DNA from: a virus
IMG/VR virus record: IMGVR_UViG_3300029266_000906
Coordinates: 1 to 24,676 of that record
Strand: one strand, 5' to 3'
DNA: 24,676 bases
Shown here: piece after piece, positions 2,614-16,924 of the stretch
Numbering within the stretch: position 1 is the stretch's first letter
Layout: every line of letters starts with the position of its first letter
The notes under the pieces: generated by a model
Databases searched by the model: none
What the model was told of the DNA's origin: nothing
Seen by the model: only the letters and a program-made list of their open reading frames with translations
Translations under genes and position numbers: made by a program

Positions 2614-4770
2614 ATGAAGAACGTAACAGTATTATTTCCAGGCGGCTTTAAGCCAATTACAGGCGCACATATAGCTCTTGCACAACGATATGCTCAAAAC
2701 CCTACCGTTAACAAAGTTATCATGTTAATAGGCCCTAAAGAAAGAGACGGTATAACTAGAGATATTAGTATTAAAATGTTTAATCTATTAAACAGAAATA
2801 CAAACATTGAAATACAACCTACTAATTTTAATTCTCCTATAATGGCTGCATATGAATATCTTTTTGAATTACCAGAAGACACCCAAGGAAAATTTGCATT
2901 AGCAGCATCTGAAAAAGATGATGATTATGTCCGTGTCAAATCATTTTTACCAAATATTGATAAATATAAATCAGTTGGAGATAGATCAGGAAGAAAAATT
3001 GCACCTGGTATAGATGCTATAGAATTAACAGTTGCAGTAGATCCATTAAAATATAAAGACGGTAATGCAATATCGGCTTCTACTATTAGAGCAGCATTAA
3101 AGAATAACGATTATGAAATATTTGCAGCAAGTTATCCTAATTATGATGAATCAATAATAAAAAATCTTTGGCAAATGCTTACTGGTGATTCTGTTAATGA
3201 AGGAGATGGTCTTTGGGCTAATATTCATGCAAAAAGAAAACGTGGTGAAAAATCAGCTAAAAAAGGATCTAAAGCATATAAAGCAGCAAAGAAAGCTGGG
3301 GATAAAATAAATAAAGAATCTATTAGTATACAAGAATGGTTTTTGCAAGAGTTAGTAAAAGATGCTATTGAAATTGAAGAGCAATTTATGGGTGGCGGTT
3401 ATATGACACCAAAAGGTTCTCAAGCACATTCTAAAAAAATTAAAAAATTAAGAAAAGCATTAGACAAACAAGACAATGAAGATGGATTTGTTTATAACTT
3501 TGATAAATATCCAAAGACAGTATTTGGAGCTAAATATTTAAATGAAGGTGGATTAGGCGGACATATGTCTCATCCATTTGATAAGAATAAATCTCAATCA
3601 TTATCATTTGCAGATTTTAAAGAAATGATTCAGCGTGGATTACAAGGAAGATTAGATATAGAATCAGCCGTTACTGAAAAAACAGATGGCCAAAATATAT
3701 TTATGACATTCAAAGACGGCGAAGTTAAATTTGCTAGAAATAAAACAGAACGAAAAAATCCATTGTCAGTACAAGGCTTACAAGCAAAGTTTGCTAATCG
3801 AGGATCAATATCTGCGGCATTTGGAGAAGCTGGCACAGATTTAGAAGCTGCATTTGCAAAAGTTAATCCAGAACAATTACAAAATATATTTCAAAATGGT
3901 AAAGTATTTGCAAATATGGAAATTATATATCCAGATACAAAAAACGTAATAGCATATGAAGTAGCAGTACTTCAATTTCATAACTTGGTTGAATATGATG
4001 AAAATGGAAATGTTGTGCAAACAGATTTAGATGGCGGAAATGTAGTACAAAAAGCGGTAACAGATGCTAATGCAGATATGCAAAAAACATTTAATTTAAT
4101 ACCACCACAAAAAATTAAAGTAGGCGCAGTAGAAAATTTTCAAGACTATCAAGATGCATTATTTAATGAATTAGATCAATTACGAGATATGTATAAATTA
4201 AAAGATACCGATCCTATATCAACTTATCATAAAGCTTGGTGGAGAGATGTTATAAAAGACAAAGCTGCTAAAGTAGGATATGAAATTCCAGACGAAATTA
4301 TAGATCAATTGGTTACTAGATGGTCATTTAATGATAAATCAAATTCAATTGTTAACATTAAAAAACAAATAGATAATCCAGAATTTGTAGAATGGGTTAA
4401 TATGTTTGACAAAAAAGATTTTAAATTATATCAAAAACAAAATATTGAACCATTTGAATCTATATTTTTAAAATTAGGTGCAGAAATAATGAAAAATGCA
4501 TCTAATTTTTTAGCAGCAAATCCTAACAAAGCTGTACAAGCAATAAGAAAAGAAATTGCACAAATAATCCGTGAGCTTAGATCTACCGGAGATATTGGCC
4601 AAATGGATCTTTTAAAGGGGCAATTAGAACGTATTAAACGATTGGGTGGATTTGAGAAAATAGTACCAGTCGAAGGAATTGTATTCACGTACGGCGGTAA
4701 TACATATAAATTAACAGGTGCATTTGCACCCATAAATCAGATATTAGGAACGTTAAAGTATTCTAGATGA
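2614..4770 (+). CDS. Bifunctional HIGH-type nucleotidyltransferase fused to ligase-type nucleotidyltransferase
   Basis: 718 residues. The N-terminal domain (about 1-190) is a cytidylyltransferase-like fold: LFPGGFKPITGAH (7-19; the GxFxPxxxGH signature), GPKERDGITRD (40-50), and ISASTIRAAL (153-162; the ISxTxxR signature). This resembles NMN adenylyltransferases, but the substrate is not proven. A basic linker, GLWANIHAKRKRGEKSAKKG (199-218), looks like a linear motif I associate with marine T4-like phages. The C-terminal domain (about 310-718) has the covalent nucleotidyltransferase/ligase motifs: motif I EKTDGQ with Lys356, motif III-like FANMEIIYP (432-440), motif IV EGIVF (687-691) and motif V YKLTG (698-702). 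Known for the superfamily: Lys of KxDG carries AMP in DNA and RNA ligases or GMP in capping enzymes. Inferred: an NAD- or nucleotide-making domain tethered to a nucleic-acid end-joining or repair domain. Nearby palindromic element suggests late expression. Confidence 0.85.
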   Translation: MKNVTVLFPGGFKPITGAHIALAQRYAQNPTVNKVIMLIGPKERDGITRDISIKMFNLLNRNTNIEIQPTNFNSPIMAAYEYLFELPEDTQGKFALAASEKDDDYVRVKSFLPNIDKYKSVGDRSGRKIAPGIDAIELTVAVDPLKYKDGNAISASTIRAALKNNDYEIFAASYPNYDESIIKNLWQMLTGDSVNEGDGLWANIHAKRKRGEKSAKKGSKAYKAAKKAGDKINKESISIQEWFLQELVKDAIEIEEQFMGGGYMTPKGSQAHSKKIKKLRKALDKQDNEDGFVYNFDKYPKTVFGAKYLNEGGLGGHMSHPFDKNKSQSLSFADFKEMIQRGLQGRLDIESAVTEKTDGQNIFMTFKDGEVKFARNKTERKNPLSVQGLQAKFANRGSISAAFGEAGTDLEAAFAKVNPEQLQNIFQNGKVFANMEIIYPDTKNVIAYEVAVLQFHNLVEYDENGNVVQTDLDGGNVVQKAVTDANADMQKTFNLIPPQKIKVGAVENFQDYQDALFNELDQLRDMYKLKDTDPISTYHKAWWRDVIKDKAAKVGYEIPDEIIDQLVTRWSFNDKSNSIVNIKKQIDNPEFVEWVNMFDKKDFKLYQKQNIEPFESIFLKLGAEIMKNASNFLAANPNKAVQAIRKEIAQIIRELRSTGDIGQMDLLKGQLERIKRLGGFEKIVPVEGIVFTYGGNTYKLTGAFAPINQILGTLKYSR

Positions 4771-6941: not shown

Positions 6942-8525
6942 ATGAGCGATCAAAAAAATATAAAACAAATAGTACAAGAACAATATTTAAAATGCGCAGA
7001 AGATCCTGTTTATTTTATGCGACAATATTGCTATATTCAACATCCTACAAAAGGAAAAATTAAATTTAATTTATTTCCATTTCAAGAAGAATCATTAACA
7101 ACATTACAAGAAAATCGTTACAATGTAATTCTTAAATCTAGACAGTTAGGAATATCAACATTATCTGCAGGATATGCATTATGGTCAATGTTATTCAACG
7201 AAGATTTTAATGTCTTAGTTATAGCAACAACCCAAGATGTAGCAAAAAACTTAGTAAGTAAAGTTCAAATAATGAATGAAAATTTGCCAAGTTGGTTAAA
7301 AACTAATATTATTACAAATAATAAATTATCATTAAAATTTGCAAATGGCTCACAAATTAAAGCAATTTCAAGTTCATCAACCGGTGCACGATCTGAAGCA
7401 TTATCATTATTAATAGTGGATGAAGCTGCATTTATTAGAAATATTGAAGAAATTTGGGTAGCATCCCAAGCTACATTATCTACTGGTGGAGGAGCTATTG
7501 TGTTATCTACTCCAAACGGTATTGGTAATTGGTTCCATCAAACATGGGCAGACGCTGAAAATGGAATTAATGGATTTGAAACAATTAAACTAGATTGGAA
7601 ATTACATCCAGAACGAGATCAACTATGGAGAAATGATCAAACTAAATTATTAGGAGAAAGAGGAGCTGCTCAAGAATGTGATTGTGATTTTATATCATCT
7701 GGTCATACTGTTGTAGATGGGGCAATTCTTCAAGAATTTGAATCAAGATGCGAAGAACCTATTGAAAAACGTGGATATGATAATGGATATTGGGTATGGG
7801 AATATCCTGATTATACAAAAAATTATATTGTTGTTGCTGATGTTGCACGTGGTGATGGCGCCGATTGGTCTACATTCCATGTTTTAGACGTAGAAACAAT
7901 AACACAAGTTGCAGAATATAAAGGTAAACTACCTCCAAAAGATTTTGGAAATATGTTAGTAACCGTTGCAACCGAATGGAATAATGCATTATTAGCTATA
8001 GAAAATGCAAATATAGGCTGGGCCGCTATACAACCAGCATTAGATAGAAATTATACAAATATATTTTATACATATAAAGATGATGGGTATGTAGATTTAG
8101 AAGTTCAACTTTTAAAAGGATATGATATAAAAGACAAAACTAAAATGGTACCTGGAGTTTCTACAACTTCAAGAACAAGGCCATTAATGATATCAGCATT
8201 AGAAATGTATATGCGTGAAGGAACACCTATTATTAAATCAAGAAGATTAATACAAGAATTATTTGTATTTGTTTGGTTAAATGGAAAAGCTCAATCACAA
8301 GTAGGTTATAATGATGATTTGGTAATGGCGTATGCTATTGGGTTATGGTTACGGGATACTAGTTTAAAATTAAGACAACATGGAATTGACTTAAATAAAC
8401 GAGCATTATCAAAAGTACAAAAAACAGATACTACAATTTTCACCGGAAATAATAAAGATGGGTCAAATGACACATGGAACTGGAATAACGGTGAAAATGA
8501 TGAAAATTTAACATGGCTTCTGTAG
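6942..8525 (+). CDS. gp17: Terminase large subunit (T4 gp17-like)
   Basis: 527 residues; packages DNA into proheads. ATPase domain: adenine-binding region FNLFPFQEE (42-50), Walker A region KSRQLGIST (65-73), Walker B LLIVDEAAF (156-164, Asp160-Glu161), and the coupling motif STPNG (189-193). Nuclease domain: VADVARGDGAD (298-308, Asp300), AIENANIG (Glu354), and YNDDLVMA (Asp458/459), the three acidic groups of the RNase H-like fold. T4 gp17 is 610 residues; this is shorter at the N terminus. The usual P-loop lysine (SRQLGKT in T4) is Ile71 here; Lys65 or Arg67 at the start of the loop may substitute, as in lambda-type deviant P-loops. No small terminase (gp16) is recognisable next to it. The start directly follows the upstream stop, so translation is probably coupled. 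Confidence 0.97.
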   Translation: MSDQKNIKQIVQEQYLKCAEDPVYFMRQYCYIQHPTKGKIKFNLFPFQEESLTTLQENRYNVILKSRQLGISTLSAGYALWSMLFNEDFNVLVIATTQDVAKNLVSKVQIMNENLPSWLKTNIITNNKLSLKFANGSQIKAISSSSTGARSEALSLLIVDEAAFIRNIEEIWVASQATLSTGGGAIVLSTPNGIGNWFHQTWADAENGINGFETIKLDWKLHPERDQLWRNDQTKLLGERGAAQECDCDFISSGHTVVDGAILQEFESRCEEPIEKRGYDNGYWVWEYPDYTKNYIVVADVARGDGADWSTFHVLDVETITQVAEYKGKLPPKDFGNMLVTVATEWNNALLAIENANIGWAAIQPALDRNYTNIFYTYKDDGYVDLEVQLLKGYDIKDKTKMVPGVSTTSRTRPLMISALEMYMREGTPIIKSRRLIQELFVFVWLNGKAQSQVGYNDDLVMAYAIGLWLRDTSLKLRQHGIDLNKRALSKVQKTDTTIFTGNNKDGSNDTWNWNNGENDENLTWLL

Positions 8526-8561: not shown

Positions 8562-10385
8562 ATGGCGTCTTTAAGAAAACGTTTACAAAATTTATTTTCT
8601 ACTAATGTAGTAGTTCGTAAATATGGTAAAGATCGACTTAAAATAGTTGATACAAATAGACTACAATCTACCGGTAATCTATCGCAAACTAGATTAGCAG
8701 ATAGATATAGTAGATTACATGGATCTAGAAAACATGCAGGAGGATCATATGGTGGATATGATTCAAATCATTATGCTCAACAAAATCGTATGCAGTTATA
8801 CACTGATTATGAGATGATGGATAAAGATCCTATAATATCATCAGCATTAGATATATATTCAGATGAATCATCATTAGCAGATCAATTTGGGGAAATATTA
8901 ACAATTAAAACAAATAAAACTCCAATTCAAAAAATATTACATAATTTATATTATGACATATTAAATATTGACTTTAATATGTGGCCATGGATCCGAAACT
9001 TATGTAAATATGGAGATTTTTATTTAAAATTAGATATTGCAGACGGACTTGGAATAATGAGTGCTAGACCGTTTTCTGCTTATGAAATAGAAAGATTGGA
9101 AGAGTTTGATGAAGAAACTGGAGAGTATAATATTAAATTTAGACACCAGTTTACTGAAATGAGTGAATATGAAGTTTTTGAAATAGCTCACTTTAGAATG
9201 ATTTCTGATTCAAATTTTTTACCGTATGGTAGATCAATGTTAGAAGGAGCAAGACAAGAATTTCAAAAATTAATGATGCTTGAAGATGCAATGTTAATTC
9301 ATAGAATAATGAGAGCACCAGAAAAACGTATTTTTAAAATTGATATTGGTAATATTCCACCAAATGAAGTAGACTCATTTATGGAAACAATTATTAATAA
9401 AATGAAAAAAGTTCCATATATTGATAAAAATACAGGAAATTATAATTTAAAATTTAATTTAAATAATATGTTAGAAGATTATTATTTACCTGTAAGAGGT
9501 GGAAATAGTCAAACTCAAATAGATACACTACCAGGAATGCAATTTACTGGTATTGATGATATTGAATATGTAAAAAATAAAATGATGGCTGCTTTAAAGA
9601 TACCAAAGCCATTCTTAGGATACTCTGAAGGAGTAGAAGGAAAATCAACATTAGCTTCTATGGATATTAGATTTGCTAGAACAATTGAACGAATTCAAAA
9701 AATTGTTGTATCTGAATTAGTAAAAATTGGAATTATACATTTATATTCTCAAGGATATGAAGGAGAAGATTTAGTAGGATTTGAATTAGAATTAACAGCT
9801 CCATCTATTATTTATGATCAACAAAAAGTTGCATTAATGAATGAAAAAATTCAATTGGCAACATCAATGAAAGATTCTAAGCTATTATCAGATAAATACA
9901 TATATGAGTATATATTCAATATGTCCGAAGATCAGTGGTTAGAAGAACGTAATAACGTAGTAGAGGATCTAAAATTAAGATTCCGTCAAAATCAAATTGA
10001 ACAAGAAGGAAATGATCCAACTATAACTGGAACATCATATGGTACACCACATGATATGGCGTCATTACATATGAGTTCAGATGATGTAGAAAATAAAGAT
10101 AAAGGCGGCCGACCACCAGAAGGAATTAAATATGGACAACATAACAACGAATTTGGATGGGATCCGACTGGCGCAAAAACAATAAAACAAGGAACTAATC
10201 CTAAAAACTTTGATACGACATTTAAACCAGAACCTAGAATGAGGGGTAAAGTAACTAAAGCAACTGCAATGGAAAATGCTAGTATAATTAAAAACTTAAC
10301 ATCAAAAAAATCAAAAATATTAACCGAAACTGATAAAAATATAAATAATTCTTCTTCTTTATTAGACGAAGATAATATTTTATAA
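8562..10385 (+). CDS. gp20: Portal vertex protein (T4 gp20-like)
   Basis: 607 residues; forms the dodecameric portal that joins head, packaging motor and neck. Diagnostic stretches include YEMMDKDPIISSALDIYSDE (about 84-103), WIRNLCKYGDFYLKL, the stem/crown region RIMRAPEKRIFKIDIGNIPP, PVRGGNSQTQIDTLPG, and KIPKPFLGYSEG. The C terminus carries a hydrophilic tail with GGRPPEGIKYG and WDPTGAK, longer than in T4 (524 residues) and of a type I associate with marine T4-like phages. It follows the terminase by 36 bases with a palindromic element between, and so may begin its own transcript. The leader is A-rich with no Shine-Dalgarno. Confidence 0.97.
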   Translation: MASLRKRLQNLFSTNVVVRKYGKDRLKIVDTNRLQSTGNLSQTRLADRYSRLHGSRKHAGGSYGGYDSNHYAQQNRMQLYTDYEMMDKDPIISSALDIYSDESSLADQFGEILTIKTNKTPIQKILHNLYYDILNIDFNMWPWIRNLCKYGDFYLKLDIADGLGIMSARPFSAYEIERLEEFDEETGEYNIKFRHQFTEMSEYEVFEIAHFRMISDSNFLPYGRSMLEGARQEFQKLMMLEDAMLIHRIMRAPEKRIFKIDIGNIPPNEVDSFMETIINKMKKVPYIDKNTGNYNLKFNLNNMLEDYYLPVRGGNSQTQIDTLPGMQFTGIDDIEYVKNKMMAALKIPKPFLGYSEGVEGKSTLASMDIRFARTIERIQKIVVSELVKIGIIHLYSQGYEGEDLVGFELELTAPSIIYDQQKVALMNEKIQLATSMKDSKLLSDKYIYEYIFNMSEDQWLEERNNVVEDLKLRFRQNQIEQEGNDPTITGTSYGTPHDMASLHMSSDDVENKDKGGRPPEGIKYGQHNNEFGWDPTGAKTIKQGTNPKNFDTTFKPEPRMRGKVTKATAMENASIIKNLTSKKSKILTETDKNINNSSSLLDEDNIL

Positions 10386-11962: not shown

Positions 11963-12583
11963 ATGAGTAAATCATTATTAGTTGAATATATGCCATTTAA
12001 ACCAATTGGTAAAGTTAATGAAGATATGGGTGCCGAATTTGGAGTACCAGGAGGACTAGTTGTACAAGGAGTATTACAACGTGCTGGAGCTAAAAACCAA
12101 AACGGGAGAGTATATCCAAAAAACATACTTCAACGTGAAGCCCAAAAATATCAAAAAGAATATATTGAACAAAATAGAGCCTTAGGAGAATTAGATCATC
12201 CAGAGTCTTCAGTTGTTAATTTAAATAACGTATCTCACAATATTTTAAAAATGTGGTGGGATGGCGATGACTTAAAAGGAGCAGTTCAAATATTAGAAAC
12301 TCCAAGTGGACAAATATTGAAATCTTTATTTAGTGCCGGCATTACATTAGGCATATCAAGTAGAGGATTAGGATCAGTAAAAGAATTATATAAAGAGTCA
12401 GCTGTGGAAGTTCAAGAAGATTTTGAATTAATATGTTTTGACTTTGTATCTAATCCATCAACTCATGGAGCATTTCTAAGACCAATGTCCGAGTCACATA
12501 ATAAAAATTTAAAAACTAATTATTTAAAAGTAAATAAAATTATTACATCAATCTTATGTGATGATGGAAAATGTAGGATTTAA
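11963..12583 (+). CDS. gp21: Prohead core protease (T4 gp21-like)
   Basis: 206 residues; the serine protease that cleaves scaffold, core and capsid proteins before DNA packaging. Diagnostic: FGVPGGLVVQGVLQRAGAKN, NGRVYPKNIL (48-57), GELDHPESS with the conserved His79, and GITLGISSRGLGSV with the conserved Ser in SSRG (132-133). Length agrees with T4 gp21 (about 212). The last 30 residues after FLRPM are a variable tail. It is preceded closely by the acidic core candidate and followed after 2 bases by a small unknown, so the whole set is probably one transcript. Confidence 0.95.
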   Translation: MSKSLLVEYMPFKPIGKVNEDMGAEFGVPGGLVVQGVLQRAGAKNQNGRVYPKNILQREAQKYQKEYIEQNRALGELDHPESSVVNLNNVSHNILKMWWDGDDLKGAVQILETPSGQILKSLFSAGITLGISSRGLGSVKELYKESAVEVQEDFELICFDFVSNPSTHGAFLRPMSESHNKNLKTNYLKVNKIITSILCDDGKCRI

Positions 12584-12585
12584 TC

Positions 12586-12951
12586 ATGAAAATAAAAGAA
12601 ATATTAGAAGCATTAGAAAATGAACCAATACAAATCTCAAAAGAACAAAAGCGTGAATTTGTTGAATCTGTAAAAGAATATTCACAATTAGGAGAAGCTG
12701 TATATGGTAAAGGTAATCTTCAAGAATTGTGTGAACGTATTAAGAATATGGTTGAAATGGCTCAACAAGTAACATTAGCAGAAGGCGATTGGTTTGATGG
12801 TATTACTGTTAATCGACACATGAAAGGTTTAAATGAATCATATAAGGTGTTTGAAAAAACAGCTAAAGAAATTTCTCAACTACAAGAAAGAATGTCTGCA
12901 GCATATGAAGATATAGGACAAGGTTTAAGTAAATATTTTGAAATTAAATAA
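12586..12951 (+). CDS. Small helical protein conserved next to gp21 (unknown role)
   Basis: 121 residues. Starts MKIKEILEALENEPIQISKEQ. Contains GDWFDGITVNRHMKGL (about 67-82) and the C-terminal ERMSAAYEDIGQGLSKYFEI. I recall small proteins with '.DWFDKITVKRNMK.L ... YED.G..L.RYFEI' near the head genes of marine T4-like phages, without a known function. Mostly helical, no membrane segment. The position between protease and scaffold suggests head assembly. It follows gp21 by 2 bases. Confidence 0.65.
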   Translation: MKIKEILEALENEPIQISKEQKREFVESVKEYSQLGEAVYGKGNLQELCERIKNMVEMAQQVTLAEGDWFDGITVNRHMKGLNESYKVFEKTAKEISQLQERMSAAYEDIGQGLSKYFEIK

Positions 12952-12993: not shown

Positions 12994-13362
12994 ATGGCAA
13001 AATTTGATAAAATGTATCACGATTTTTTTGGAATAAAACCTCAATTAAACGAAGCGGATTTAGTAAATAAGATATCTGACTACAGAGGAGGATTTCTTTA
13101 TAAATTGATTGACCCAGCAACAGCTGGAAATGTAAAAGCAGATATACAAGCATTTTTAAATAAAAAAGCTATGCATGTTATTAAAACAAAATTTCAAGAT
13201 GAAAATGGAAAAGGATTTTTTTATGTTAGATTGGGAGAAGATCCAGCTAAAGAATCACAACGAATACAGGGATTTATAAGTCAATTACCTGAAGTTGAAA
13301 AATTTTCATTTACATTAAAGCCAATACAAAAACAAGTTACAAAACAAACCCCAAATATATGA
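12994..13362 (+). CDS. Hypothetical protein upstream of the bS21-like gene
   Basis: 122 residues, not recognised. Starts MAKFDKMYHDFFGIKPQLNE with AGGA 7 bases before the ATG (TATAGGAAACAA). Mixed alpha/beta: FLNKKAMHVIKTKF, then FFYVRLGEDPAKESQRIQGF and VEKFSFTLKP. The strand-loop-strand pattern and length would fit a small ferredoxin-like domain, but I see no motif that proves it. It overlaps the bS21-like gene by 4 bases (ATGA), so that gene's translation is probably coupled to this one. Confidence 0.6.
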   Translation: MAKFDKMYHDFFGIKPQLNEADLVNKISDYRGGFLYKLIDPATAGNVKADIQAFLNKKAMHVIKTKFQDENGKGFFYVRLGEDPAKESQRIQGFISQLPEVEKFSFTLKPIQKQVTKQTPNI

Positions 13363-13598
13363 ATAAAAAATTAAAACAACATCAAACAATTATTCCAGGA
13401 CATAGTATAGGATCAAGCGTAGTTGGTAAAGATATAAACTTTGCATTACGTAATTGGAAACGAAAATTAAAATTTGCAGACACATTAACTATTCTTAAAG
13501 AGAAAAAAGAATTTATTAAACCTAGTGTTATAAAAAGACAACAAATGATTCAAGCTAGTTATAAACAACGAATGCAATCATTAAATGACCAAGAATAA
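13359..13598 (+). CDS. rpsU-like: Phage-encoded ribosomal protein bS21 homologue
   Basis: 79 residues. Residues 26-56 read INFALRNWKRKLK then KEFIKPS, followed by VIKRQQMIQASYKQRM. This follows the bS21 pattern (ALR.(F/Y)KR ... G.l..lr.r..F.KPS..R......A..k...) and especially the Bacteroidetes form, which as I remember reads 'ALKRYKRK ... FIKPSVKRR..I.KAAY.Q'. A 20-residue N-terminal extension (MNKKLKQHQTIIPGHSIGSS) is extra; cellular bS21 is about 64-70 residues. Known: bS21 sits near the anti-Shine-Dalgarno end of 16S rRNA, helps hide it in Bacteroidetes, and viral bS21 genes have been reported (for example in pelagiphage HTVC008M). Inferred: the protein enters host ribosomes late in infection. 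It is the last gene of the gp17-gp21 unit, translationally coupled to the preceding gene and followed by a terminator. Confidence 0.82.
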   Translation: MNKKLKQHQTIIPGHSIGSSVVGKDINFALRNWKRKLKFADTLTILKEKKEFIKPSVIKRQQMIQASYKQRMQSLNDQE

Positions 13599-13629: not shown

Positions 13630-13661
13630 AAAAGCCCTAGCAGAAATGTTGGGGCTTTTTT
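13630..13661 (+). terminator. Rho-independent terminator after the packaging/prohead unit
   Basis: Stem AAAAGCCC (13630-13637) with GGGCTTTT (13652-13659), extended inward by TAGCA/TGTTG (two G-U pairs) to a GAAA tetraloop (13643-13646), then a T run. The best-formed hairpin in the window. Confidence 0.9.
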
Positions 13662-13682
13662 ACTGTTTTTTTTACTTTACCT

Positions 13683-13698
13683 ATATTTATTTAAAATA
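13683..13698 (+). promoter_or_regulatory. AT-rich late element, copy 5 (scaffold/capsid unit)
   Basis: ATATTTATTTAAAATA, 92 bases before the gp22 ATG and about 20 bases after the terminator. If it is the promoter, gp22-gp23 mRNA has an 80-90 base leader, the longest in the window. Confidence 0.45.
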
Positions 13699-13730
13699 CG
13701 TTATTAATCTATATAGCGTCATATAATAAT

Positions 13731-13762
13731 ATAATCTTATTAAGATTCACAATAATCTTATT
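13731..13762. repeat. Direct and inverted repeats in the gp22 leader (operator-like)
   Basis: ATAATCTTATT occurs exactly at 13731-13741 and 13752-13762, start-to-start 21 bases (two helical turns). The first copy overlaps the palindrome AATCTTA-T-TAAGATT (13733-13747). This could be a protein-binding site or an mRNA hairpin in front of the most highly expressed unit. Confidence 0.5.
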
Positions 13763-13778
13763 TCCAAAACATAAATTT

Positions 13779-13785
13779 AAGGAGA
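13779..13785 (+). promoter_or_regulatory. Strong Shine-Dalgarno of gp22
   Basis: AAGGAGA ending 5 bases before the ATG at 13791; a canonical site. Notable because other starts in the window (gp20, gp23) have only A-rich leaders. Confidence 0.8.
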
Positions 13786-13790
13786 AAACA

Positions 13791-14840
13791 ATGGCAAAAT
13801 CTGATTTGCTTAAAGAAGCAATCGCAGATGCTAAAGCTGTTAAAGAAACGGCATTAGCAAACGCAAAGATAGCACTAGAAGAAGCTTTTGCACCTAGAAT
13901 TCATGGTATGTTATCCGCAAAGTTATCTGAAGAATTAGACGACGAAGATATGGACGAACCTACACCAGAACCAACTATGGAACATGACGTAATGTATGAA
14001 CCAAAAGGCGAAGAAGGAATGGGATCTGAAATGGACATGGAAGCACCTGCACCAGAAATGGATACAGAAATTGATATGGAAGCACCTGCCCCAAATATGG
14101 ACGCACCTGCTGACGAAGAAATGTCAATGGAAGGTATGTATATGAAGGATGAGGATGAAAATCCTGCAGACGCTGATTCAATGATGGCACCGGATGAAGA
14201 CCTAGAACTAGAAGCAATAATTCGTGAACTAGAAGAAGACTTAGACGAAGAAATGGATCCAGAAGAAACAATTGAAGAAGATGCATATAATAAAGATGCA
14301 GCTGATTCAACTGATTCAAAGGGTAATGATCTTATGGCTGGTGCTTCAGGAATGAAAAATGAAGAATTTAATATAGACGAAATCATCGAAGAAATTTTAT
14401 CTGAAGATGACGAAGCTGTAGTAACAGAAGAAGAAGATGAGAAAGACGAACCAAAAGAAAAAATGGAAGAAATCTCAAATGAACTTACTGAAGCTTATAA
14501 TACTATTCATTCTTTAAAAGACACGATTAACGAAGTTAATCTTTTAAATGCAAAACTTCTTTATACCAACAAATTATTCAGAAATTTTGAATTATCAGAA
14601 AATCAAAAAATGACTGTAATTGAAAATTTTGATAGAGCTGGTAATACAAGAGAAGTAAAATTAGTGTTTAGTACGTTAGCTGAGAGTTTTCAACTTCCTG
14701 TTAAAAAGAAAAAGATTGTGAAAGAAAGTTTCGCATCTAAAGCTTCAGGAACAACAGCTCCAAGTAACAAAACTAAACAAATTATTAATGAAGGCAACCA
14801 ATTAGCTAATCGTTGGAAACAATTAGCCGGTTTGCTTTAA
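13791..14840 (+). CDS. gp22: Prohead scaffold protein (T4 gp22-like)
   Basis: 349 residues; the main component of the assembly core inside the prohead, normally degraded by gp21. Seen: an N-terminal helix (SDLLKEAIADAKAVKETALA) and APRIHGMLSAKLSEEL; a long acidic, Met/Pro/Ala-rich middle (about 50-230) with near-repeats of MEAPAPEMD; and a conserved C-terminal block INEVNLLNAKLLYTNKLFR (246-264), QKMTVIENFDRAGNTREVKL (272-291), ending in ANRWKQLAGLL. The C-terminal block is typical of gp22. T4 gp22 is about 270 residues, so the acidic middle is expanded. It is followed 19 bases later by the capsid gene, with which it forms a unit ending at 16617. Confidence 0.93.
   Translation: MAKSDLLKEAIADAKAVKETALANAKIALEEAFAPRIHGMLSAKLSEELDDEDMDEPTPEPTMEHDVMYEPKGEEGMGSEMDMEAPAPEMDTEIDMEAPAPNMDAPADEEMSMEGMYMKDEDENPADADSMMAPDEDLELEAIIRELEEDLDEEMDPEETIEEDAYNKDAADSTDSKGNDLMAGASGMKNEEFNIDEIIEEILSEDDEAVVTEEEDEKDEPKEKMEEISNELTEAYNTIHSLKDTINEVNLLNAKLLYTNKLFRNFELSENQKMTVIENFDRAGNTREVKLVFSTLAESFQLPVKKKKIVKESFASKASGTTAPSNKTKQIINEGNQLANRWKQLAGLL
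14034..14101 (+). repeat. 39-bp-spaced direct repeat in the gp22 acidic region
   Basis: GA(C/T)ATGGAAGCACCTGC at 14034 and 14073, each continuing (A/C)CCA(G/A)A(A)ATGGA; encodes DMEAPAPxMD twice. Confidence 0.7.
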
Positions 14841-14859: not shown

Positions 14860-16542
14860 ATGGAAATTTCATCTTTATTAGAAGACAATAATCCTTCCCA
14901 AAGAAATGCTGCTAAAGGTTTAGTATCAAAATGGGAAAGAACAGGACTTCTTGAAGGATTAGATGGAGATACTCAAAGATCTGGTATGTCGCAATTGCTT
15001 GAAAATCAAGCTAGACAATTAGTGAAAGAAGCTTCATCTAGTGGTACATCTGCTAACTCTGAAGAGTGGGCTGGTGTAGCTTTACCATTGGTAAGAAGAA
15101 TATTTGCTGAATTTGCAGCAAAAGAATTCGTCTCTGTACAACCAATGAATTTACCTTCAGGACTAGTATTTTATCTAGATTTTAAATACGGTACCGCACA
15201 ACCAGGCTTTAATACAACTGGTGGTACATCAAATGAGTTTAAATTTGGTTCTCCAAATGCTGACAACTCTATGTTTGGTGTAACATCTGCTGACACAGCT
15301 TCTGGTGGTTTATATGGTGCAGGTAGATTTGGATACTCACTTAACGAAACAGCATCAGGTGCTGGTGTAGGTGGATTTGGACTTAATGTAACAGTTGCTA
15401 GTGCAACTTCTGCATCTATGAATTTTGATAGTAGTGTTACCGGTTTAGGTAAAAATACTGTTGAACATAGAATAATACAAGTACCTACAACATCATTATC
15501 AGGATCAGACCTTACAGCAGTAAGATCATTTACAATTACATCACAATCAAGTGCTACCGCATTTTCAACATTCCCAGCTTTTACAAGAGTTGTTGGCGGA
15601 AATGTAGAATTTGTAGTAACTGGATCAGGTGCACTTTTAAATACAAATGCTGCCCATAGAGGATTTACAGTAAAGTATAGTAAACAACCAACTGATATTA
15701 CAAGAGGTGATTTCGAAGATGCTAATCCATTCGCTGGTGGCGGTGCCAACAACGGTGGTATTGACAAAGGTGATGATATTAATATTCCTGAAGTTAATCT
15801 TGAAATGCAGTCAGACCCAATTGTCGCTAAGACAAGAAAGTTAAAAGCTGTATGGACTCCAGAATTTGCTCAAGATTTGAATGCATATCATTCAATTGAT
15901 GCAGAAGCTGAGTTAACTTCAATGCTAAGTGAATATGTATCAATGGAAATTGATCTTGAAATATTAGATATGTTAATCAATGGCGCAGTAACAACTGAGT
16001 ATTGGTCAGCTGTATCTAATCAATTTGTAAATGCCGCTGGAACAGCCTTCGTAGGAAAAGCTGTTGCTGATGGTGGATTTTATAATACACAAGGAGAGTG
16101 GTTCCAAACTTTAGGAACTAAACTTCAAAAAGTATCTAATAAGATTCATCAAAAAACCCTAAGGGGTGGCGCTAATTTCTTAGTAACATCACCTGCTGTC
16201 GCAACTATCCTAGAATCAATTCCTGGATTTGCTGCCGACACAGATGGTACTAAAATGGAATTTGCTGCTGGTGTTCAAAAAATTGGTGCAATCAATAATA
16301 GATACACAGTATATAAGAATCCATACATGAAAGAAAACGTAATCCTTATGGGTTATAGAGGAGCTCAATTCCTTGAAACTGGTGCAGTTTATGCTCCATA
16401 CGTACCTTTGATTATGACTCCACTAGTATACGATCCTGTTAATTTCACCCCAAGAAAAGGTGTAATGACAAGATATGCTAAGAAAATGGTAAGACCAGAA
16501 TTCTACGGTAAAGTATATGTTGCTGGATTAGATTCAGTTTAA
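14860..16542 (+). CDS. gp23: Major capsid protein (T4 gp23-like)
   Basis: 560 residues (T4 gp23: 521). Diagnostic: the N-terminal prohead-targeting part (MEISSLLEDNNPSQRNAAKG), VALPLVRRIFAEFAAKEFVSVQPMNLPSGLVFYLDFKYG, KTRKLKAVWTPEFAQDLNAYHSIDAEAELTSML-type HK97-fold core, GANFLVTSPAVATILESIPGF, and the C-terminal PRKGVMTRYAKKMVRPEFYGKV. A Ser/Thr/Gly-rich insert (about 110-275) probably forms the surface domain. A likely gp21 cut site is LVKE-ASSSG (after Glu57), the position expected from T4 (about residue 65). The leader is A-rich (AAGAAAGAAAAATAAAA) without Shine-Dalgarno, as is usual for Bacteroidetes genes. Followed by a strong terminator. Confidence 0.98.
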   Translation: MEISSLLEDNNPSQRNAAKGLVSKWERTGLLEGLDGDTQRSGMSQLLENQARQLVKEASSSGTSANSEEWAGVALPLVRRIFAEFAAKEFVSVQPMNLPSGLVFYLDFKYGTAQPGFNTTGGTSNEFKFGSPNADNSMFGVTSADTASGGLYGAGRFGYSLNETASGAGVGGFGLNVTVASATSASMNFDSSVTGLGKNTVEHRIIQVPTTSLSGSDLTAVRSFTITSQSSATAFSTFPAFTRVVGGNVEFVVTGSGALLNTNAAHRGFTVKYSKQPTDITRGDFEDANPFAGGGANNGGIDKGDDINIPEVNLEMQSDPIVAKTRKLKAVWTPEFAQDLNAYHSIDAEAELTSMLSEYVSMEIDLEILDMLINGAVTTEYWSAVSNQFVNAAGTAFVGKAVADGGFYNTQGEWFQTLGTKLQKVSNKIHQKTLRGGANFLVTSPAVATILESIPGFAADTDGTKMEFAAGVQKIGAINNRYTVYKNPYMKENVILMGYRGAQFLETGAVYAPYVPLIMTPLVYDPVNFTPRKGVMTRYAKKMVRPEFYGKVYVAGLDSV

Positions 16543-16581: not shown

Positions 16582-16617
16582 AGTAAGAAGGGATGATTTT
16601 GTCATCCCTTTCTTACT
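16582..16617 (+). terminator. Terminator after the major capsid gene
   Basis: Long hairpin: AGTAAGAAGGGATGA (16582-16596), loop TTTTG, TCATCCCTTTCTTACT (16602-16617), with one bulged T in the right arm. The tail is TACTGTTTTG. Near-symmetric flanks could let it act on both strands. Confidence 0.85.
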
Positions 16618-16648: not shown

Positions 16649-16924
16649 ATGGCAGTACCAAGAACAAAATACTCTATGCAAATGCGAATCCGATATAAAG
16701 GTAATCTTGTTGATGTATTAGATAGAATACGTGCAATACGTATGGTATTAATGGTTCATATAGAACAAGACTTAGGAAAAGGATCTGAATTAATAACAGT
16801 CAAGATTATGACACCATATCCAGGAATTAAATCATTCCAAGCAATAAGAAAATTAGGTGTAGGAAAAATAGAAACTTTAGAACAGATTCAATTATTAGAA
16901 ACCACATTAACTAAACTTCAATAA
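16649..16924 (+). CDS. Small hypothetical protein between capsid and neck genes
   Basis: 91 residues, not firmly recognised. Reads MAVPRTKYSMQMRIRYKGNL, DRIRAIRMVLMVHIEQDLG and ITVKIMTPYPGIKSFQAIRK. The strand-helix-strand pattern (charged strand, 'RIRAIRMV' helix, 'ELITVKIMTP' strand, second helix) would fit a small ferredoxin/ACT-like fold. It is set between its own late elements, one 10 bases upstream and one just after its stop, so it may form a unit of its own. Its conserved place next to gp23 suggests a virion or head-completion role, by context only. Confidence 0.6.
   Translation: MAVPRTKYSMQMRIRYKGNLVDVLDRIRAIRMVLMVHIEQDLGKGSELITVKIMTPYPGIKSFQAIRKLGVGKIETLEQIQLLETTLTKLQ

Follow-up and report, generated by a model that had tools for sequence, protein, structure and literature searches.

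A Bacteroidia-type bS21 gene in the head-gene cluster of a T4-like phage whose genes carry Shine-Dalgarno motifs

Genes for ribosomal protein bS21 have been reported from viruses (Mizuno 2019, PMC6375957), and the bS21 of pelagiphage HTVC008M enters E. coli ribosomes, which in vitro then retain about 5% of their activity (PMC6375957). Bacteroidetes phages with bS21 beside head genes were described by Chen 2022 (PMC9723584); there bS21 carries an aromatic residue 54 and is expressed late, and it was proposed to replace the host protein in the ribosome. N-terminal extensions of rpS21 are known from huge phages (Al-Shayeb 2020, PMC7162821). In Flavobacterium johnsoniae, Tyr54 of bS21 stacks on A1534 and thereby directs the tail of the 16S rRNA into a pocket (PMC9976891). 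The same study states that Tyr54 is uniquely conserved in Bacteroidia, and reports that the state of bS21 alters the use of Shine-Dalgarno (SD) sequences in F. johnsoniae and that removal of Tyr54 frees the anti-SD (PMC9976891).

We analyzed a stretch of DNA of 24,676 nucleotides from a marine bacterial virus (IMG/VR record IMGVR_UViG_3300029266_000906; hereafter ‘the window’) in which a 79-residue product had been predicted, from the sequence, to be bS21 in its Bacteroidetes form. Both parts of that prediction were borne out. The profile search proposed as a check placed the product above the cut-off of Pfam PF01165 Ribosomal_S21 (32.2 bits against 27; E 8.7e-8), and its score with NCBIfam S21p (TIGR00030) was 28.6 bits, slightly below the cut-off of 28.95. 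The closest sequence in the PDB was F. johnsoniae bS21 itself (7jil_z, E 5.5e-7), in an alignment that pairs window Tyr68 with F. johnsoniae Tyr54, and the C-terminal 8-mer ASYKQRMQ was seen in Bacteroidota genomes only. The three helices predicted in the AlphaFold model (mean pLDDT 81) would fit the alpha1-alpha3 plan of F. johnsoniae bS21, and comparison of the model with known structures (Foldseek, VIA) returned weak matches only, all of them mitochondrial ribosome entries (Z <=3.9). The product is a genuine bS21 of the Bacteroidia type. It is under strong purifying selection, with a dN/dS of 0.12 in the window clade and 0.08 in the N-terminal extension. This extension had been put at 20 residues, a figure that needs correction: 22 residues stand ahead of the shared core versus 8 in Flavobacteriales bS21, an excess of about 14.

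Table 1. Features of the head-gene region of the window (positions of the whole stretch)
Feature	Position	Strand	Remarks
Terminase large subunit (terL)	6942..8525	+	Same head region as bS21
Portal protein, gp20 family	8562..10385	+	
Prohead protease gp21 (Peptidase_S77)	11963..12583	+	AGGAG in leader
Conserved ORF in gp21-bS21 slot	12586..12951	+	
Conserved ORF immediately 5' of bS21	12994..13362	+	Overlaps bS21 start codon
bS21 gene, 79 aa	13359..13598	+	Start ATGA-overlaps stop of previous ORF; without SD motif
N-terminal extension, residues 1-22	13359..13424	+	K-x-H-x-S-I-x-P-G, a motif that class II phages conserve; dN/dS 0.08
Predicted helices alpha1 and alpha2, residues 26-40 and 42-48	13434..13502	+	AlphaFold
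Predicted helix alpha3, residues 55-78	13521..13592	+	Near-identical to marine Flavobacteriales rpsU (KRQQ.I.ASYKQRMQS)
Gln65 codon (position 51)	13551..13553	+	Lys/Arg in candidate hosts; Lys in class I phages
Tyr68 codon	13560..13562	+	Aligned with F. johnsoniae Tyr54, which stacks on 16S-tail A1534 (PMC9976891)
Intrinsic terminator after bS21	13630..13659	+	
Conserved gp22 leader	13682..13793	+	Late-promoter-like ATATTTAT, two hairpins, UUUCC
Scaffold-position protein (gp22)	13791..14840	+	AAGGAG before start; assigned by position and conservation, without library match
Major head protein (gp23)	14860..16542	+	

The window presents the T4-like order terL, portal, gp21 protease, gp22 position and gp23 (Table 1), and bS21 occupies the slot between prohead protease and scaffold, as expected from its predicted place in the head operon. 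Its start codon overlaps the stop codon of the preceding ORF (ATGA, 13359-13362). The arrangement terminase, portal, two ORFs, gp21, one or two ORFs, bS21, gp22 position and gp23 recurs in dozens of IMG/VR loci, at bS21 identities down to about 30%, and Microcystis phage Mel-JY01 has the same slot order, bS21 included. Flavobacterium phage immuto has an equal order of head genes, but a search of the slot revealed no bS21 homologue. Because the terminator downstream of bS21 is followed by the gp22 leader, bS21 closes the packaging and protease unit, and scaffold and capsid belong to the unit after it; bS21 is thus the last gene of its unit and lies outside the capsid transcript. The proposed position in the head operon, directly before the scaffold-capsid unit, is supported. 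The terminator and the gp22 leader of its own weaken the further suggestion that bS21 shares the timing of the capsid. Elsewhere in the window, a strong hairpin with a T-run on both strands (16587-16611), probably a terminator, separates gp23 from the ORF at 16649, and the product of 2614-4770 has an N-terminus (FPGGFKPITGAH) resembling a nucleotidyltransferase, without a Pfam match; phage immuto carries a gene annotated as NadR-like.

The gp22 leader contains two hairpins (13698-13704/13713-13719 and 13741-13747/13754-13760), followed by a UUUCC (13761-13765) that is able to pair with the SD GGAGA (13781-13785). Among class II phages (defined below), the sequence of the first hairpin varies while its pairing is kept (seven of eight leaders form 7/7 pairs), and the second shows two compensatory changes. 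No fitting family for this leader was found in Rfam. A model built on it gave weak matches at the corresponding position of three further loci (L068, L072 and L084) and no match in the class I loci searched or in immuto. The gp22 leader of another locus (L061, 5' of 6325) has an unrelated sequence, CCUC-UUA-GAGG, placed right over the gp22 SD as a possible SD-hiding hairpin.

Additional phage bS21 genes were gathered and sorted, and those with an aromatic residue 54 split into two classes. In class I, the N-terminus is short and host-like, residue 51 is Lys, and the bS21 genes run antisense to the head genes where those are near. Class II, which includes the window, has the K-x-H-x-S-I-x-P-G extension and is co-directional with the head genes; by estimate it comprises perhaps six to eight branches. 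Residue 51 is mostly changed in class II (to Gln, Thr or Ala, with Lys in L057 and Arg in L058 and L059), and the aromatic residue at 54 is retained in every protein of the class. As separate observations, the head-cluster bS21 of an SD-using, non-aromatic group (L065, L070, L093, L097 and L103) bears a lysine-rich C-terminal tail of about 30-40 residues, and class I loci such as L148, L175 and L137 have a TATTTATA-like motif about 10-25 nt 5' of the gp21 start, with the look of a late promoter and a very short leader.

The two classes also differ in their gene starts, which were assigned mechanically by taking the longest ORFs without overlap and, in each, the first ATG. On this basis, 13 of the 21 window genes carry an SD motif, with ordinary pairing strengths of about -4 to -9; the counts were 5/153 genes for a set of five isolated Flavobacteriia phages and a related huge phage, and 9/174 genes in two candidate hosts. 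SD motifs precede 65 of 144 class II genes versus 6 of 232 class I genes (57/144 versus 1/232 with strict spacing) and, among homologous head genes, 27/39 versus 0/59, and since the phages are related to each other, p-values overstate this difference. Most class II motifs lie 5-9 nt from the start. None of the class II bS21 genes themselves has one (0/13), but neither does any portal gene (0/8), and an SD-less start is therefore no special trait of bS21. In the longest class II contig (57 kb), no early genes could be clearly recognised for a comparison of early with late SD use.

For bacteria, 40 Bacteroidota genomes were sampled. SD motifs preceded 10 of 154 genes in the 11 genomes whose bS21 has Tyr or His at position 54, versus 94 of 419 in those with Arg54. 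Two apparent cases of Tyr54 combined with SD use in Bacteroidota (L317 and L319) were dropped, the signal having gone in larger samples (5/91 and 0/71). An aromatic residue 54 thus goes with SD-blind translation in the sampled bacteria, as it does in class I phages; class II alone breaks the rule. Its SDs are kept at homologous places over deep divergence, as in the gp22 leader, and are therefore presumably functional in the infected cell.

The reading that we favor, with some reserve, is that the window bS21 binds the 30S subunit of the host where the host protein would otherwise sit and tilts initiation toward phage late messages. The protein would be made late in infection and would enter host ribosomes instead of host bS21, and the ribosomes so modified would shift which mRNAs are favored, to the advantage of late phage messages. 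Because the bS21 gene lacks an SD and overlaps the gene before it, its first synthesis could take place on unmodified host ribosomes, by coupled re-initiation. Replacement is supported by the helix that contacts the 16S tail, which matches that of marine Flavobacteriales, by purifying selection and by the fixed slot among the head genes. By analogy, the entry of HTVC008M bS21 into E. coli ribosomes and the late expression of the Chen 2022 bS21 would also fit. The same analogy tells against a benefit, since the HTVC008M protein left E. coli ribosomes only about 5% active, and incorporation need not improve phage translation.

How the SDs are to be explained depends in part on the host. A search of 84,980 species genomes with peptide patterns from the window bS21 yielded 22 relatives; all are Bacteroidota and 20 belong to Flavobacteriales, many of them marine. 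The 8-mer ASYKQRMQ is common to all 22, and it is rare: in a phylum sample it was present in one of 296 genomes, that one being the centre itself. As this C-terminal motif was seen in Bacteroidota only, mostly Flavobacteriales, bS21 alone suggests a Flavobacteriales host for the window phage. The 16S rRNA of a candidate host ends in ACCTCCTTT, with the anti-SD intact. No window-clade contigs were found in samples of Flavobacteriales-group genomes, which overlapped in part (399, 120, 240, 200 and 200 genomes). One genome bin (G298) contained three T4-like contigs, which were rejected as a host link because their capsid proved to belong to the L068 type and not to class II. The idea that a host gene had recently donated the C-terminus was likewise set aside: DNA identity is just 41-44 of 57 positions, and about half to three quarters of the shared codons are identical. 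The Bacteroidetes promoter motif does not discriminate and was discarded as host evidence.

The main rival to our reading is that the host is an SD-using bacterium rather than a typical member of the Bacteroidia, that the phage SDs simply match it, and that the Bacteroidia-like bS21 was inherited or borrowed. We regard this as possible, if on balance unlikely. It would account for SDs that are conserved over deep divergence and presumably function during infection. Elsewhere, phages resemble their hosts, as the almost SD-free isolated Flavobacteriia phages do; Bacteroidota with Arg54 do use SDs; and Mel-JY01, the closest phage by portal, is recorded from a cyanobacterium. Against it stand the statement that the conservation of Tyr54 is unique to Bacteroidia (PMC9976891), the 11 sampled Bacteroidota with an aromatic residue or His at 54, which lack SD use, and the occurrence of the exact ASYKQRMQ in Bacteroidota only. 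Class II in any case cautions against inferring a phage host from bS21 alone.

We give a similarly tentative place to replacement of the kind proposed by Chen and coworkers without any SD specificity, in which the phage protein supplements host bS21 or takes its place, general initiation is kept high, and the SDs are neutral leftovers. The C-terminal helix and Tyr54 are kept, so a host-like action may hold (PMC9723584). Neutral leftovers fit poorly, however, with class II SDs held at 5-9 nt across lineages whose bS21 identity falls to about 40%, or with the absence of SDs from class I phages that have the same head genes.

A more specific form of the replacement that we favor is, in our judgment, doubtful: that class II bS21, with its extension, lets the anti-SD of an SD-blind Bacteroidia ribosome pair with SDs carried only by phage late messages, so that host messages lose. 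The location of bS21 on the ribosome would put an N-terminal extension near the mRNA path, and the altered class II N-terminus possibly helps the modified ribosome to use SD leaders. In favor of such a switch are the pattern seen in class II, the conservation of the extension and the lack of an SD in the bS21 gene. The aromatic residue 54, which is never lost, and SDs far weaker than F. johnsoniae would require argue against it, as does a host that is itself deduced. Hijacking of autoregulation, with phage bS21 silencing an SD-driven host rpsU, was considered separately and is unsupported for this host group; the rpsU leaders of the Crocinitomicaceae type that we read are mostly SD-less.

Two further explanations can be largely set aside. 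That the protein was recruited from bS21 into the prohead core is very improbable: it is small and basic, and T4-like phages keep core proteins at this position, in a slot fixed beside protease and scaffold, but its ribosome-contacting residues are conserved and host-like, other phage bS21 genes lie away from head genes (Pelagibacter phage Mosig), and one phage bS21 enters ribosomes (PMC6375957). An origin of the SD difference in the mechanical choice of starts or in base composition is just as hard to credit, even for AT-rich and mutually related phages, given frequencies of 0-5% in upstream control windows of the same genes and 2-3% in phages of similar GC (immuto and class I), together with the spacing of the motifs and the gene-by-gene comparison of homologues described above.

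That phage bS21 redirects ribosomes has long been proposed, without a sequence handle on what gets selected. Class II supplies one, and makes the idea of a specialised ribosome directly testable with a reporter and an F. johnsoniae complementation strain.

Several described systems resemble the window in part. HTVC008M (PMC6375957) and Mosig EXVC030M likewise encode bS21 in a marine T4-like phage; the Mosig protein lacks the aromatic residue 54, and its gene, located outside the head cluster, has sliding clamp and heat-shock genes nearby. Huge-phage rpS21 (PMC7162821) shares a basic N-terminal extension, predicted to help binding or initiation, which, unlike that of class II, is not connected in that study with an aromatic-54 class or with SDs in the phage's own genes. 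F. johnsoniae bS21 (PMC9976891) shares the Tyr54 position, the predicted helix plan and the link between bS21 and SD reading, but there SD use follows loss of bS21 (autoregulation, bS21-free ribosomes) and requires pairing stronger than -13 kcal/mol, well outside the range of the window SDs. Closest are the freshwater phages of Chen 2022 (PMC9723584), which have predicted Bacteroidetes hosts and a Bacteroidia-type, aromatic-54 bS21 near terminase, portal, protease and capsid genes; the core observation of a Tyr54-bearing bS21 near head genes in Bacteroidetes phages is therefore already published. In those phages bS21 is antisense to the head genes, as in class I, whereas in the window and the rest of class II it is on the same strand, and the window differs further in its conserved N-terminal extension, its changed residue 51 and its SD-bearing genes. 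What is new is that class II phages pair a Bacteroidia-type bS21 with phage genes that bear SDs.
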